A DNA stretch of 64,000 nt, taken from Jannaschia sp. Os4 (lineage in GTDB: Bacteria > Pseudomonadota > Alphaproteobacteria > Rhodobacterales > Rhodobacteraceae). The notes under the pieces are model-generated. The model made no database searches. It was not told the origin of the DNA and saw only the letters and a program-made list of their open reading frames with translations. The translations under genes and the position numbers were made by a program. The DNA lies in assembly GCF_016820245.1 (NCBI RefSeq), contig NZ_JAFCAR010000003.1:515001-579000 (forward strand), given 5' to 3'. The number at the start of each line of letters is the position of its first letter. Positions within the stretch are counted from its first letter, which is position 1. This document shows positions 35,119-41,977 of this stretch, piece by piece.

Positions 35119-36690
35119 ATGCTCCGCCGCCTCCATGCCGACCAGCCCGACGCCTTCGCCTTCACCCCCGCCAACCAAGCGTGGGCCGAGGCGCAGATCA
35201 CGAAGTATCCCGAGGGGCGGCAGGCCTCCGCGATCATCCCGCTGCTGTGGCGGGCGCAGGAGCAGGAGGGCTGGCTGACCCGGCCCGCGATCGAGCACGT
35301 CTGCAAGATGCTCGACATGGCCTACATCCGCGGCCTCGAGGTCGCGACCTTCTACTTCATGTTCCAGCTCCAGCCCGTCGGCGCCAAGGCTCACGTCCAG
35401 ATCTGCGGGACGACGTCGTGCATGATCATGGGGGCCGAGGACCTCGTGGGGGTGTGCCGCCGCGTGATCGCGGGCAAGCCGCACCAGATCTCGGAGGACG
35501 GGGCGCTGTCGTGGGAGGAGGTCGAGTGCCTCGGGGCCTGCTCCAACGCGCCCATGGCCCAGATCGGCAAGGACTACTACGAGGATCTCACGCCGGAGCG
35601 GCTGGAGGTCATGCTGGAGGAGTTCCGGGCCGGCGACGTGCCCGCGCCGGGTCCGCAGAACGGGCGCTGGGCCTCGGAGCCGGAAGGCGGGTTCACCTCG
35701 CTGACCGAGGGCGACACTGCGGAGGACGCGAACGCCTCGAAGGCGCTGGCGGCCTCCATCGGCGACACGGTGAAGCGCATCGACGGCACCGAGGTGCCGC
35801 TGCGCGCGCCGTGGCGCGACGCGGCGCAGGCGGACGAGCGGCCCGAGGCGGCGGCGCGCGACCCGCTGATGCACCCCGACGGGCCGGATGGGCGGCAGGG
35901 CGGGCGCATGCCCGGCGCGCCGGAGCCGGACCGGGCGCGCGGCGACTCGTCGGACGGCTACGCCAACGTGCGGGGGTCGGACGCGAAGGCGAAGGGCCGC
36001 CCCGACATCGACGCCGTGGCCGACGAGCCGGCGGGCAAACCGGGCGCGGGACTCGGCGGGGACGCCACCGCGGCCGCGCGCGGCGCCGCGCCGGGGCCGC
36101 AGGTGAGCGGCACCACCGACGACGACGGGGAGCCGAAGGGCACCAAGACCGCCGCCGAGGCGACGTCCACGCCCGCCGGATCCACCGGGTCGGCCACGCC
36201 GTCGGGCAATGCCGGCGACGCGTCCGGCACGCCGCGGGCGGACGCGCAGCAGGCGCCGGTCGGAGCCGGGTCGCGGGCGTTCGACCCCTCGATCAGCCCG
36301 CCCGCCGGGTCGGCGGCTGGCGGTGACGCGCAGACCGCGCAGGCCTTGGGCGCCGGCGCGCGGGGTGGCAGCGCCCCGGCCCCGTCCGGCGGCGGTGATT
36401 CGATCGGCACCAAGCCCGAGACGCTCGACGCCCCGCGCGGCGAGGCCGACGACCTCAAGGCGATCCGCGGGATTGGGCCGAAGCTGGAGGTGCTCTGCAA
36501 CCGTCTGGGCTTCTGGCATTTCGACCAGATCGCCAACTGGTCCGCGGAGGAGGTCGCGTGGGTCGACTCGAACCTCGAGGGGTTCAAGGGCCGCGTCACG
36601 CGTGACGAATGGGTGAAACAGGCTAAAATCCTGTCCGAAGGCGGCGAGACGGCGTTCTCCAGCCGCGTGACCAAGGGGGAGGTCTACTGA
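35119..36690 (+). CDS. nuoE: NADH-quinone oxidoreductase subunit E with long C-terminal extension
   Basis: Residues 1-190 are a normal 24-kDa subunit with the thioredoxin-like fold and the 2Fe-2S (N1a) ligands C96, C101, C137, C141. NuoE is usually about 160-240 residues; this one has 523. A Gly/Pro/Ala-rich acidic linker (about 190-430) leads to a folded-looking domain at 436-523 ([30 protein letters not shown] and on, parts [20 protein letters not shown]), whose start is a helix-hairpin-helix-like GIGPK motif. The same domain ends the next protein. Such tails occur in Rhodobacterales NuoE, as I recall. GGGAGAGACC precedes the ATG. The extension's role is unknown. Confidence 0.95.
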
Positions 36691-36720
36691 GCCGACCCTC
36701 CCCGTATCGGGAGACACGGC

Positions 36721-38097
36721 ATGGACAGACCCTCTGGAACGCTCGAGAGCCTCGCGATCTGCTGGGGCGTGGCCGCCCTCGCGGGGGCGGGGGCCTTCGC
36801 GCTGCTCTTGATCCTCGGTGACTGGAGCCTGCTGCAGGCGATCTTCGGCGGGGCGGTCGTCGCCGCCGCGCTTGGCGTGCTCCTCACGCTCACGGTCGGA
36901 CGGCCCGTCGCCGCTCCGGTGGGCGCGCACGGGGTGCTGACGCCGAACGCAGACGCCGTCGCGCGCGGGCGGCCCGGCGAGGCGGCCGTCCCCGCCCCGG
37001 CCCGCGCGCCGGTCGCGCCATCCCCGCACCGGACGGCGCCGGGTCACTCCGGGGCCTCGACGGCGCGGTCGACCGGGCTGGGCGACGCCGCCACGGACCG
37101 CGCGATCTCGCCGGGGCCCGGCGGCAGCTTCGCCGCCGAGGCCGCGCCCGCGACCCGCGTCCCGAGCCCCGCGCCGATCAACGCCGCCGACCCGGGCGTG
37201 GCCCGGCCCGTGGGCGCGACGGCCAACCCGATCCCGCAGGCCCAGCCCGCCCCCCTGAACGGGGCGATCATCTCGCCGGAGGCCCCGCAACCCGCGACGC
37301 CGTTCGACGCGGCCCGTCCGCGCGTGAGCCGCAACGAGGCGGCGATGGCGGCGGGGATCACGACGATGCCCGCGCCCACCGCGACCACCGCGGCGCAGAG
37401 CTACAACGAGGTCGATCCCGCCCAGCCCGCCCGCGGCGTGGGCGACGGCGCGACCCACGTGGATGGCGGGTATCCGGACAATCCGGTCACCGCGCGCGAG
37501 GGCGGGGACCAGTTCACCGGCTCGCACGTGGGCGGGACGGCGGCGGAGACCGCCGCGGGGACGGCGGCCTACGCCGCATCGACCCCCGCCGGGACCGCCG
37601 CCGACATGGGCGCGATGGGCGAGGCCGCCCCGGGCGGGGGCGTCGAGGGCCACCTCGCCGCGCGCGACGAGGTCAAGGAGGACGCGGGCGCGTCGGGATC
37701 GGACATCTGGACGCCGGACGGGGAGCCCGTGCAGCCCGCCGACGAGGCGGCGGAGGTGTTCGACGAGGGGGCCGACGACGCGGCGGCCCGCGCCGCCGAC
37801 GCCTCGCCCGGCGTGAAGCCCGCGACGCTCGACGCCCCGCGCGGCGGCTCCGCGGACGACCTCAAGCGGATCAAGGGCGTGGGTCCCAAGATGGAGCAGC
37901 TCTGCAACCGTCTGGGCTTCTGGCACTACGACCAGATCGCCTCCTGGACGCCGGAGGAGGTCGCGTGGGTCGACAGCAACCTCGAGGGGTTCAAGGGCCG
38001 GGTCAGCCGGGACAACTGGGTCGCGCAGGCCGGGCAGCTGGCACGGGGCGAGGACACGGCCTTCTCGAACAAGGTGGACAAGGGCGGCGTGTACTGA
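36721..38097 (+). CDS. Two-helix membrane protein with the NuoE-type C-terminal domain
   Basis: The 458-residue protein has two N-terminal membrane helices (about 11-32 and 37-58), a long low-complexity Ala/Gly/Pro linker (about 60-365) and a C-terminal domain (370-458). That domain is nearly the same as the end of Nuo[61 protein letters not shown]. It therefore looks like a membrane-anchored partner carrying a duplicate of the NuoE tail. GGGAGACACGGC is its ribosome site, 31 bases after the nuoE stop. The function is unknown; both proteins could bind the same partner. Confidence 0.8.
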   Translation: MDRPSGTLESLAICWGVAALAGAGAFALLLILGDWSLLQAIFGGAVVAAALGVLLTLTVGRPVAAPVGAHGVLTPNADAVARGRPGEAAVPAPARAPVAPSPHRTAPGHSGASTARSTGLGDAATDRAISPGPGGSFAAEAAPATRVPSPAPINAADPGVARPVGATANPIPQAQPAPLNGAIISPEAPQPATPFDAARPRVSRNEAAMAAGITTMPAPTATTAAQSYNEVDPAQPARGVGDGATHVDGGYPDNPVTAREGGDQFTGSHVGGTAAETAAGTAAYAASTPAGTAADMGAMGEAAPGGGVEGHLAARDEVKEDAGASGSDIWTPDGEPVQPADEAAEVFDEGADDAAARAADASPGVKPATLDAPRGGSADDLKRIKGVGPKMEQLCNRLGFWHYDQIASWTPEEVAWVDSNLEGFKGRVSRDNWVAQAGQLARGEDTAFSNKVDKGGVY

Positions 38098-38199: not shown

Positions 38200-38424
38200 A
38201 TGACCGCGCCCGACGACCTGACCCGCGCTCGCCGCGCCCGAACCCTCGCCCTGACCATCGTGGGCACGTTCGCGGCTTGGATGATCGTGCAGGCCTTGGG
38301 CGCGACCTACGGGTGGCCCGCGCGGTGGGTGGCCCTGTTCGACCTCGCCGCGCTGGCCGTCCTCGGATGGGCGGTGGTGGCGGGGATCCTGATGTGGCGC
38401 GCGCGCCGGACCGGAGACGAGTGA
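38200..38424 (+). CDS. DUF5337 small membrane protein
   Basis: The 74-residue protein has two membrane helices (residues 15-34, [18 protein letters not shown], and 44-66, [24 protein letters not shown]) and basic ends. Its place directly before nuoF and its pattern fit DUF5337, a family known from Rhodobacterales nuo operons. The stop overlaps the nuoF start (TGATG). The role is unknown; an assembly factor or supernumerary subunit of complex I is a guess. Confidence 0.8.
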
Positions 38425-39719
38425 TGCTCAAGGACGAGGACCGGATCTTCACCAACATCTACGGGCGGCTGGACCGGTCGCTCGCGGGCGCGAAGGCGCG
38501 GGGCCACTGGGACGGGACGGCCGGCCTGATCCAGAAGGGCCGCGACTGGATCGTGCAGGAGATGAAGGACAGCGGCCTGCGCGGGCGTGGCGGCGCGGGC
38601 TTCCCGACGGGGCTCAAGTGGTCCTTCATGCCCAAGGAGAGCGACGGGCGCCCCGCCTACCTCGTGGTCAACGCCGACGAGTCCGAGCCGGGCACCTGCA
38701 AGGACCGCGAGATCATGCGCCACGATCCGCACACGCTGATCGAGGGGTGCCTGATCGCGAGCTTCGCGATGAATGCGAACGCCTGCTACATCTACATCCG
38801 CGGCGAATACATCCGCGAGCGCGAGGCCCTGCAGGCCGCCATCGACGAGTGCTACGACGCGGGCCTCCTGGGCGCGAACGCGGCCGGGTCGGGCTGGGAC
38901 TTCGACCTCTACGTCCACCACGGCGCGGGGGCCTACATCTGCGGCGAGGAGACGGCGCTGCTGGAGAGCCTCGAGGGCAAGAAGGGCATGCCGCGCATGA
39001 AGCCGCCCTTCCCGGCGGGCGCGGGCCTCTACGGCTGCCCCACCACGGTCAACAACGTCGAGAGCATCGCGGTCGTGCCGACCATCCTGCGGCGCGGCGC
39101 CTCGTGGTTCAGTCAGTTCGGGCGGGACAACAACAAGGGCACCAAGCTCTTCGCAATCTCGGGCCACGTGAACCGGCCCTGCGTCGTCGAGGAGGCGATG
39201 TCGATCCCGTTCCAGGAGCTGATCGACAAGCATTGCGGCGGCATCCGGGGCGGGTGGGACAACCTCAAGGCGGTGATCCCCGGTGGATCATCGGTGCCGC
39301 TGCTGCCCTCGGCCACGGCCAAGGAGGCCATCATGGACTTCGACTGGCTGCGCGAGCAGAAGTCGGGCCTCGGGACGGCCGCCGTGATCGTGATGGACCA
39401 GTCGACGGATATCGTGAAGGCGATCTGGCGTCTCTCGGCCTTCTACAAGCACGAGTCGTGCGGCCAGTGCACGCCCTGCCGCGAGGGGACGGGCTGGATG
39501 ATGCGGGTCATGGACCGGCTGGTGCGCGGCGAGGCGGAGGTCGAGGAGATCGACATGCTGCTCGACGTCACCAAGCAGGTGGAGGGGCACACGATCTGCG
39601 CCTTGGGCGACGCCGCCGCGTGGCCGATCCAAGGCCTGATCCGGCACTTCCGCGACGAGATCGAGGACCGCATCCGCCACAAGCGCGTGGCCCCGGCGGC
39701 GGCGGTGGCGGCGGAGTGA
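38424..39719 (+). CDS. nuoF: NADH-quinone oxidoreductase subunit F
   Basis: NuoF binds NADH and FMN and holds cluster N3. The 431-residue protein has [13 protein letters not shown] for FMN/NADH, the [15 protein letters not shown] region, and the cluster motif [14 protein letters not shown] with a later Cys in TICALGD. The size is normal. It is overlapped at its end by the GTG start of the MAPEG gene (GTGA). Confidence 0.98.
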
Positions 39720-40216
39720 TCCGCGCGGCCCTCGTGCTGTCGCTCGTGGCCGCCCCGGCGGCGGCGCAGGGGATCGAGGGCGCGTTCGTCGCCGAGCGGC
39801 TCGCCGATCTGGACCTCTTCGCCCCCTATGCCCACGCGGTCGCGTCGCTCGCGCTGTGGGCACTGCTGATGGCGGCGCTGCTGGTCGGCTCGACGATGGG
39901 CAAGGCGCGCGCCCGGACCGAGAGCGGGATGATCGTGCGCGACTATTCCGATCCGGCCTACCGCCGGGACCGGGCGTTCCGCAACGCGATCGAGGCGAAC
40001 GGGATGTTCGTCGCGGCCACGGTGGCCTGCATCCTCGCGGGGGCGTCGCCGCTGCTGACGAACCTTCTCGCCTCCGCGTTCGTGGTCGCGCGGGTCGCCA
40101 CCGCCGCGGTGCACGTGTTCACGGAGAACCAGATGGCGCGCTCCGCGACGTGGACGGTCGGGGCGCTGGCCACGCTGGGCCTCGCGCTGCTCGGCCTGTG
40201 GGCGGCGCTGGCCTAG
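39716..40216 (+). CDS. MAPEG-family membrane protein
   Basis: The 166-residue protein starts with a signal-like segment ([18 protein letters not shown]). It has about four membrane helices and the MAPEG-like stretch [26 protein letters not shown], ending in [30 protein letters not shown] proteins include glutathione transferases and peroxidases of the membrane; bacterial members are mostly uncharacterised. It is coupled to nuoF (GTGA) and begins the accessory block between nuoF and nuoG. Confidence 0.75.
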
Positions 40217-40264
40217 CGCCGCGCCGGGGTTCGGCCTATGCCGGACGTCGACAGGAGGACCGCC

Positions 40265-40705
40265 ATGATCCGCAGAAGCCTCGCCGCGCTCGGCCTCGCC
40301 GGGCTCGCCGCCTGCACCCCGGCGGAGCCCGTCGAGCCGCCGCGCAAGCTGACCTCGACCAACGCGGACACGCGGTCGCTCCGGGCCGCGGCGTTCCAGT
40401 TCGCCCGCGACTCCGCCGTCGCGCAGGTAATCGCGGACGTCTGCGCCGACGAGGGGCTGCGGCTGAGGGGCGGGTCGCCGCGGGCGCAGCTCTTCGCCTT
40501 CGTCCGCAAGATGCAGGCCTTGGGCTATTCGGACGAGCAGACGCGGGACGCGATCCTCCGGCTGGACCAGGACGACGGGGGCCGAGCCGCCATCCGCTAC
40601 CTGCAGGCGCGGGGCGTGTCGCCCGGCGACAAGGACCGGCTGTGCCTCGTCGGGCGCAGCGAGCTCGCGCAGGGCACCTCCCTTGGTCGGCTGCTCGCGC
40701 GATGA
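40265..40705 (+). CDS. Small lipoprotein, DUF5333-like (first of three)
   Basis: The 146-residue protein has a lipoprotein signal (MIRRSLAALGLAGLAACTP, lipid Cys17). The mature part is helical with two cysteines, C60 and C127, 67 residues apart. The second begins the motif CLVGRSELAQGTSLGRLL. This layout matches the next gene and the DUF5333 gene at 41579. It should sit in the periplasm anchored to a membrane, with the two cysteines probably bonded. AGGAGGACC is its ribosome site. The stop overlaps the next start (ATGA). Function unknown. Confidence 0.75.
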   Translation: MIRRSLAALGLAGLAACTPAEPVEPPRKLTSTNADTRSLRAAAFQFARDSAVAQVIADVCADEGLRLRGGSPRAQLFAFVRKMQALGYSDEQTRDAILRLDQDDGGRAAIRYLQARGVSPGDKDRLCLVGRSELAQGTSLGRLLAR

Positions 40706-41091
40706 GGGCGGTCGCTCTGCTGCTCTGCGCCACGCCCGCGATGGCGCAGGAACCGGCGCCCTCGCCCGACTACTTCGTCGAGGGCGTCGTCGCCTCCGCG
40801 GCGGCGCAGGCGGTGGCCTTGGCCTGCCCGACCCTGAGCGTCGATCTCGGCGCCGCGGCGCGGTTGTCCGAGGACGTGCTCGCCCGGTTGACGGCGGACG
40901 GGTTCGACCCGCAGAACCTGCTCGCCCGCATGGAGGATCCGCAGCCCGCCATCGCGGCCTTGCAGGACGCCTTCCTCGCGCGGCATGGTCTGGCCGAGGG
41001 GGCGCCCTCGGAGGTGGCCTGCGCCGCCGGGCGCACGGAACTGGAGGAGGGCAGCGCGATCGGTGCGCTGCTGCTGGAGGTGGACGGATGA
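40702..41091 (+). CDS. Small secreted protein, DUF5333-like (second of three)
   Basis: The 129-residue precursor has a signal peptide ending near AMAQ (residues 13-16). Cysteines C42 and C107 are 65 residues apart. The C-terminal motif CAAGRTELEEGSAIGALL matches those of its neighbours. The start overlaps the upstream stop (ATGA), and the stop overlaps the following lipoprotein start in the same way, so the three genes 40265-41462 are translated as a unit. Function unknown. Confidence 0.75.
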   Translation: MRAVALLLCATPAMAQEPAPSPDYFVEGVVASAAAQAVALACPTLSVDLGAAARLSEDVLARLTADGFDPQNLLARMEDPQPAIAALQDAFLARHGLAEGAPSEVACAAGRTELEEGSAIGALLLEVDG

Positions 41092-41462
41092 CGGCGACGA
41101 GGGTGATCGCGTGTGTGCTGGCGCTGGCCGCCGTGGCGGGCTGCGCGCGGCTGGCCTCCATCCCGGTTCCGTTCCGCACGCCCGACGGCGGCACCAACCG
41201 CGTCGAGTTCGACGGCCAGCGCTTCCGCACGCGGATCTCCGCCACCACGCCGGACCGCCGCGGCTTCGCCGTGTCGGTGGGGCAGCCCTCGCGCAGCGTG
41301 GCGGGCGCCTTGGAGGCGGGGCGGCACCGCGCGATCGGATACTGCCTGAACCGCTTCGGCGGCAGCGACATCCTGTGGGACGCCGGCCCGGACCGCGAGG
41401 CCGACGCCCTCGTCCTGAGCGAGGGGGCGCTGATCCTGACCGGGACCTGCACCACCCGCTGA
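41088..41462 (+). CDS. Small lipoprotein in the nuo operon, family not recognised
   Basis: The 124-residue protein has a clear lipobox (VAGC, Cys19). The mature domain is beta-rich (NRVEFDGQRFRTRISATT, GFAVSVGQPSRSV) with a central AIGYCLNRFGGSDILWDAG and a final Cys near the end (TGTCTTR), so one disulfide is possible. It lies between two DUF5333-like genes but lacks their C-terminal motif. I do not recognise the family. Confidence 0.65.
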   Translation: MTATRVIACVLALAAVAGCARLASIPVPFRTPDGGTNRVEFDGQRFRTRISATTPDRRGFAVSVGQPSRSVAGALEAGRHRAIGYCLNRFGGSDILWDAGPDREADALVLSEGALILTGTCTTR

Positions 41463-41578
41463 GGCCCGCGTCATCGGATGACCTCCGCCCGACAGCGGGT
41501 GCGCCGGGGGCGTCCCTTGCCACGCCGGGGGCGGGGTCCGACATTCGGGGGGACGTCACCGCACACCCGGAGGATCCG

Positions 41579-41977
41579 ATGACCCGACCGATCGCCGCCG
41601 CCTTCCTCGCCGCCGCCCTCGCCGCGCCGCTGCCGGCCGCCGCCGATCTCGGCGACGAGCCCAACGTGGTCGAGCCGTTGATCGCCATCGGGATCGCCTA
41701 CGAGATCTCGAAGCGGTGCGACTCGATCTCGGCGCGTCGGGTACGGGGCGTGACGCAGCTGATGTCGATCCGGGGCCGGGCGAGCGACCTCGGCTACTCG
41801 AAGTCCGAGATCGACGCGTGGATCGACGACGACGCCGAGAAGGACCGCCTCGAGGCGGTCGCGCGGGAGCGGCTGGCCGCGATGGGCGCGCCGGAGGGGA
41901 ACGAGGCGGCGCATTGCGAGGTGGGCCGGGCGGAGATCGCGAAGGACAGCTACATCGGGTCGTTCCTGAGCGACTGA
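41579..41977 (+). CDS. DUF5333 secreted protein (third of three)
   Basis: The 132-residue precursor has a signal peptide (ending AAAD, about residue 23). C47 in SKRCDSISAR and C113 are 66 residues apart. The motif CEVGRAEIAKDSYIGSFL closes the protein. The pattern ISARRVRG, GYSKSEIDAWIDDDAEK is, to my knowledge, that of DUF5333, a Rhodobacterales family of unknown function. GGAGGATCCG is the ribosome site. A 116-base gap separates it from the lipoprotein gene upstream. Confidence 0.82.
   Translation: MTRPIAAAFLAAALAAPLPAAADLGDEPNVVEPLIAIGIAYEISKRCDSISARRVRGVTQLMSIRGRASDLGYSKSEIDAWIDDDAEKDRLEAVARERLAAMGAPEGNEAAHCEVGRAEIAKDSYIGSFLSD

Follow-up and report, generated by a model that had tools for sequence, protein, structure and literature searches.

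A 64,000-nucleotide stretch of the genome of Jannaschia sp. Os4 (contig NZ_JAFCAR010000003.1, positions 515,001 to 579,000; this whole stretch is called the window below, and all coordinates refer to it) carries two adjoining genes, nuoE for subunit E of complex I and a gene for a membrane protein, whose products end in homologous tail domains. Comparison across the order Rhodobacterales supports the view that such tails have been overwritten in both directions, several times. By its profile matches and gene order the second gene encodes the orthologue of protein-O, a subunit of the reaction-centre–light-harvesting 1 (RC-LH1) complex of Dinoroseobacter shibae. We think it fairly probable that the tail is an interchangeable cytoplasmic adaptor on NuoE and protein-O, overwritten by exchange and binding a common putative partner. 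The shared C-terminus itself was already known; what is new here is that the tails do not sort by gene, that they occur independently of one another, and that a loop motif in the protein-O hairpin has an uneven distribution.

Two homologous tails in adjoining genes

The nuoE gene (35119–36690, + strand, 523 residues) is a single open frame that includes the tail. Its thioredoxin-like ferredoxin domain (Pfam PF01257) occupies residues 24–169 and is followed by a long linker rich in Ala, Gly and Pro and then by a helix-hairpin-helix (HhH)-like tail domain at residues 436–523 (36424–36687), which was delimited by BLASTP and alignment and is modelled by AlphaFold2 with a predicted local distance difference test score of 94.9. 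The complete protein scores 556 bits against PRK12373, the NCBIfam model for NuoE with a C-terminal extension, whose curated cut-off is 514 bits. The single frame and this score exclude a frameshift that joined the tail to NuoE, and the fusion is genuine, as a preliminary description of the window had proposed. The next gene (36721–38097, + strand, 458 residues) encodes a two-helix membrane hairpin, a long linker and a second HhH-like tail at residues 370–458 (37828–38094), recognised by alignment, BLASTP and a profile search of the PDB.

BLASTP of the two proteins gives 151 bits (E 8e-45) with the tail as the only significant common stretch. Over the tails, 65 of 88 residues are identical (74%), and at the DNA level 200 of 264 bases (76%). 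The protein similarity of the tails is genuine and far above chance. Both tails lie where the preliminary description had placed them and, as it also said, the linkers differ, BLASTP having aligned neither; its phrase "nearly the same" was right about homology and overstated an identity of 74%. The long identical DNA blocks that it mentioned are present as well: three of at least 18 bases, one of 27 (36492–36518, identical to 37899–37925, both on the + strand) and two of 23 (from 36545 and 37952, and from 36571 and 37978). As a control for chance, both protein sequences were held fixed and codons were drawn with the usage of six nuo genes, the window being 72% G+C. The longest identical run in these draws averages 20.1 bases and reaches at least 27 in 14% of them (P 0.14), and codons at conserved degenerate residues are shared at 47 of 61 positions against an expected 40.9 ± 3.3 (P 0.038). 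Conserved protein sequence and codon bias thus account for most of the identity in these DNA blocks.

Tails that are not grouped by gene

The likeness of the tails had been put down to recent duplication or gene conversion, and a comparison within and between genomes had been proposed to check this. At 101 non-redundant loci the identity of NuoE and protein-O tails is 0.668 within a genome and 0.636 between genomes (maximum of 10000 permutations, 0.651); a repeat with regions fetched from 90 genomes, a sample overlapping the 101 loci, gave 0.656 and 0.632 (permutation maximum 0.652). The within-genome excess is small and clear. In a tree of 60 hand-chosen tails over 89 columns, placement of all NuoE tails in one clade is rejected by 172 log units in an approximately unbiased (AU) test on two trees (nominal p-AU 3e-149). 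This tree splits into two sides (support 99/93). The first holds NuoE tails from seven genomes of the Yoonia group and from four others; five Aliiroseovarius-like and two Lentibacter/Roseobacter genomes have both of their tails there. The second holds the other 23 protein-O tails together with the NuoE tails of six Jannaschia and six other genomes. The ten rows from both genes of the five Aliiroseovarius-like genomes form one clade (95/86), and the NuoE tail of the window is of the protein-O type and differs from that of Yoonia and its relatives. In addition, a one-residue loop indel occurs in all four combinations among 142 distinct tail pairs (55, 44, 17 and 15 pairs; 11 were not parsed). 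Both the mixing in the tree and the four indel combinations argue that protein-O-type tails have entered nuoE genes and that NuoE-type tails have entered protein-O genes. Gene conversion would be the simplest cause, and for the order as a whole, in both directions, the tree and the permutations bear out that part of the earlier suggestion.

For this strain, the word "recent" finds little support. The NuoE tail of the window is 83% identical to that of Jannaschia aquimarina vs 74% to the protein-O tail of its own genome, and the excess of shared codons given above is slight. In the 60-row tree the six NuoE tails of Jannaschia group as a single clade (99/95), and ten fall on one branch (89) in another tree, so recent conversion of the whole tail in Os4 is rejected; because the six form a clade, the Jannaschia swap would predate their divergence. 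The central tail codons of the window are mostly closer between the two genes than between orthologues, and the last codons are less alike, which is a weak hint of a later short conversion tract in the central codons (36480–36590). A run test on the window pair gave P 0.004, uncorrected, and placed it eighth among 120 pairs, behind seven pairs of NuoE tails from different genomes. At another locus (L209, genome G001) the NuoE tail and the protein-O tail share 84% of their residues, vs a mean identity of 55% to the protein-O tails of other genomes, which is likely another tail exchange. We found no paper in the open-licence PMC literature on tail exchange or on a tail common to NuoE and ribosomal protein L21 (see below).

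The tails also occur independently of one another. At the 117 loci where nuoE and nuoF were both read, 90 have both tails, 24 have the NuoE tail only and three have the protein-O tail only; neither tail therefore depends on the other, and obligate tail–tail pairing is rejected. Three of the 24 loci with only a NuoE tail (L133, L134 and L208) have a hairpin protein that lacks a tail. In two of them (L133 and L134, genomes G103 and G128) this tail-free protein of 135–141 residues follows nuoE and is perhaps protein-O after tail loss. In most other gaps (five, then four of six, by eye) the sole membrane protein between nuoE and nuoF resembles DUF5337.

The protein-O orthologue and its distribution

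In D. shibae, protein-O was detected by electron cryomicroscopy and mass spectrometry; its residues 8–59 form a hairpin that has the reaction-centre L subunit (RC-L) on one side and LH1 alpha subunits 11 and 12 on the other, its C-terminal domain was not visible, and its gene is flanked by nuoE and nuoF (PMC12079452). The authors of that 2025 paper liken the C-terminal domain to the C-terminus of NuoE and call its function "obscure", so the core observation of a shared tail has already been published for another species. Sections 2.3 and 3 and further passages of the paper contain no mention of tail exchange or of protein-O in non-phototrophs, and it is the only one found in the open-licence PMC literature to treat protein-O.

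The gene in the window occupies the same place, in the order nuoE–protein-O–nuoF; a DUF5337 gene identified by a family match (38200–38424, + strand, 74 residues) and nuoF (38424–39719, + strand, above the cut-offs of NCBIfam PRK13596 and TIGR01959) follow it. Like D. shibae protein-O (PDB 8yy9, 8yz2, 9jpb and 9km0; PMC12079452), its product has an N-terminal two-helix hairpin with a WSxLQxxF loop, a long linker and the same C-terminal domain, and its host has reaction-centre genes. The hairpin spans about residues 12–62 (36754–36906), and the loop between its helices reads WSLLQAIF (residues 35–42, 36823–36846) where D. shibae has WSFLQGAF. The window protein differs in length, with 458 residues and a longer linker vs 239 in D. 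shibae, and it lacks a cysteine at the position of Cys59, so that the Cys10–Cys59 disulfide reported for D. shibae is impossible in it. The window genome has two Photo_RC genes, and the adjoining frames (L126), judged by eye and from the genes alone, appear to encode L, M and cytochrome subunits.

Searches of the PDB led to the same family. A profile built from three tails of this genome found two close sequences. One is 8yy9 chain O (E 5e-42), titled "Reaction center protein O chain"; the other is 9wqv chain a (E 3e-35). The C-terminal domain of 8yy9 chain O matches the protein-O tail of the window with an i-Evalue of 4.9e-38. A profile of 18 hairpins, led by that of the window, matched 8yy9 chain O (residues 1–63, E 9e-14), 9lts chain A ("Protein LRC"; E 2e-13) and, more weakly, 9wqv chain a (E 9e-4). 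Both 9wqv and 9lts contain reaction-centre M chains. Chain a of 9wqv, 229 residues long and entered as "NADH:ubiquinone oxidoreductase 41 kd complex i subunit", has the same tail (E 1.6e-37 in a further PDB search) without its final 15 positions; its hairpin match is the weaker one and it lacks the loop motif. In the alignments shown, residues 2–54 of 9lts chain A are identical to the D. shibae protein-O hairpin, and at 76 residues this chain is too short to include the tail.

We sampled 149 genomes of the order and accepted tails at E 1e-6. The tail domain is present in 144 of these genomes and reaction-centre genes in 64. A tail-bearing protein-O adjoins nuoE in 60 of the 64 reaction-centre genomes (G026 by coordinates only, and G044 and G083 without nuoF in the stretch; it is missing in G046, G062, G094 and G134). 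Of the 85 genomes without a reaction centre, where the nuo loci of 26 were not read, at least 38 have it at this place, G017 and G049 being counted in addition to 36 from the survey of loci. Protein-O presence is associated with the reaction centre (Fisher P 7e-11, phylogeny ignored). One of the four exceptions (G094, a 4.6 Mb assembly in seven contigs) has NuoE and reaction-centre genes and no tail domain at this threshold.

The loop was described by the motif W-[STGD]-x-x-Q-[GA]-x-[FY], chosen after 60 reaction-centre rows and 44 others had been viewed. Of the hairpins from reaction-centre genomes 24 of 59 have it, vs none of 36 from others (phylogeny not removed); counted by genus, the figures are 11 of 26 vs none of 22. 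An independent-pairs comparison of the reaction centre with the motif or with protein-O presence yields just one pair on supported branches. In three mixed genera (g3, g4 and g26) the motif is missing both in the reaction-centre members and in the others read, so it is not obligatory everywhere. The periplasmic end of the D. shibae hairpin contacts RC-L residues 266–270 (PMC12079452), and since Cys10 and Cys59 are cytoplasmic the loop should lie at this contact.

Some further genes of these loci deserve mention. In some phototrophs (L012, L026, L039, L041, L042, L138, L158 and others) a third, more diverged tail-bearing gene (~62–84 bits) follows protein-O. Another protein with the tail, which seems to have one membrane helix and begins with MF.[ED]WGFLL or a close variant, lies away from nuoE in six genomes, at L040, L044, L151, L175, L196 and L199. 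Downstream of nuoF in the window, three successive frames (40238–40702, 40985–41974 and 39856–41088) match DUF5333 (PF17267), which is another repeated family within the complex I operon.

A possible role for the tail

The tail is HhH-like. Neither protein's tail matched a Pfam family above its cut-off; HHH_5 matches 71 of 88 tails (best E 1.3e-4) and does not match the window NuoE tail at E up to 1. Compared with known HhH domains, such as the RadA N-terminus and NusA AR2, the tail gives no significant Foldseek E-value, and the Pfam HhH models match it weakly. A chain labelled BS in trypanosome mitoribosomes also came up in the Foldseek comparison. The domain has other carriers. Ribosomal protein L21 of this genome ends in a third copy, 49% identical to the NuoE tail and stopping 14 columns earlier; the models for L21 (PRK12278), ribosomal protein S2 (PRK12311) and phasin PhaH (NF045508) contain it too, with matches over the tails at E 5e-12 to 7e-17, and varied proteins of other alphaproteobacteria carry it (by eye). 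In a genome of another family (L233, 177–1697, G205), two tandem copies stand in one open frame.

Judged by homology, the protein-O hairpin would be embedded in the membrane with both its N and C ends in the cytoplasm and, in phototrophs, would sit between reaction-centre L and LH1; the long flexible linker would then keep the HhH-like tail in the cytoplasm. NuoE, with the same domain on a similar linker, would likewise present it on the cytoplasmic side. In the lineage of Jannaschia, a protein-O-type tail seems to have displaced the NuoE-type tail before the genus diversified. Because a tail can pass from a complex I subunit to protein-O or the reverse while both proteins persist, the two tails are presumably functionally equivalent; both would do the same job, most likely by binding the same putative cytoplasmic partner, each serving as an adaptor suited to several machines (NuoE, protein-O and L21). 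The earlier idea that both tails may dock on one partner near the membrane would agree with their exchangeability and with their cytoplasmic side.

It is possible, though unlikely, that the membrane protein is primarily an accessory or assembly protein of complex I whose hairpin was recruited by the reaction centres of some lineages. The position of its gene between nuoE and nuoF, retained in many genomes without a reaction centre, fits this. Its presence there in nearly all reaction-centre genomes, the restriction of the loop motif to such genomes and the PDB searches with tail and hairpin profiles, which matched reaction-centre entries and no complex I entry, tell against it. We consider it doubtful that the tail is a binder of nucleic acids or ribosomes, or a neutral addition with no specific partner. 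HhH domains frequently bind DNA, and the ribosomal and other carriers would suit such a role, but mean net charges are −0.7 for NuoE tails (n=111) and −0.2 for protein-O tails (n=106), with −5 for the L21 tail of this genome, although single tails reach 7 and 9; neutrality is contradicted by the 13 columns that are invariant across 88 tails. Direct binding of the two tails to each other, which would link complex I with protein-O and thereby, in phototrophs, with RC-LH1, appears improbable: domain, operon and cytoplasmic side are shared and the tails within a genome are slightly more alike than expected, but each tail is found alone at some loci, and no charge complementarity is apparent, both means being near zero and the ranges wide (−8 to 7 and −7 to 9). 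A single ancient duplication without exchange, in which the similarity is plain conservation, agrees with a mean within-genome excess of just 0.03, with the clustering of the window NuoE tail among those of its own genus and with identical DNA blocks nearly as codon bias predicts, but it is very improbable in the face of the rejected NuoE clade (which contradicts it unless alignment or model error shaped the tree), the ten-row Aliiroseovarius-like clade and the NuoE-type placement of both Lentibacter/Roseobacter tails.

Several points weigh against the adaptor and exchange reading that we prefer. Among all protein-O tails, the best match of a NuoE tail is the one from its own genome in just 11 of 101 cases in the first set and 6 of 90 in the repeat, so exchange would be episodic, and the AU probability is nominal for two trees on so few columns and hand-chosen rows. 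Transfer of single genes between species is a possible alternative to conversion as the cause. On the structural side, every Foldseek E-value obtained with the tail is at least 0.2; the window protein-O by itself scores only 12.8 bits on the 8yy9 chain O hairpin, so the hairpin homology rests on the family profile; and the loop motif is missing from 35 of the 59 hairpins whose genomes have a reaction centre.

If one interchangeable adaptor sits on both the NADH-oxidising arm of complex I and a reaction-centre subunit whose gene belongs to the complex I operon, it might connect respiration with photosynthesis on one membrane scaffold, perhaps along with tailed ribosomes, with gene conversion keeping the adaptors equivalent; we regard this wider picture as speculative and rather unlikely. 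Since repeated exchange suggests equivalent function, one tail could be used to look for the partner of the other, also in non-phototrophs, and the sharing of a scaffold by complex I and RC-LH1 in aerobic phototrophs becomes testable. Relatives of a reaction-centre subunit also reside within the complex I operon of many of the sampled genomes without reaction-centre genes (at least 38 of 85).
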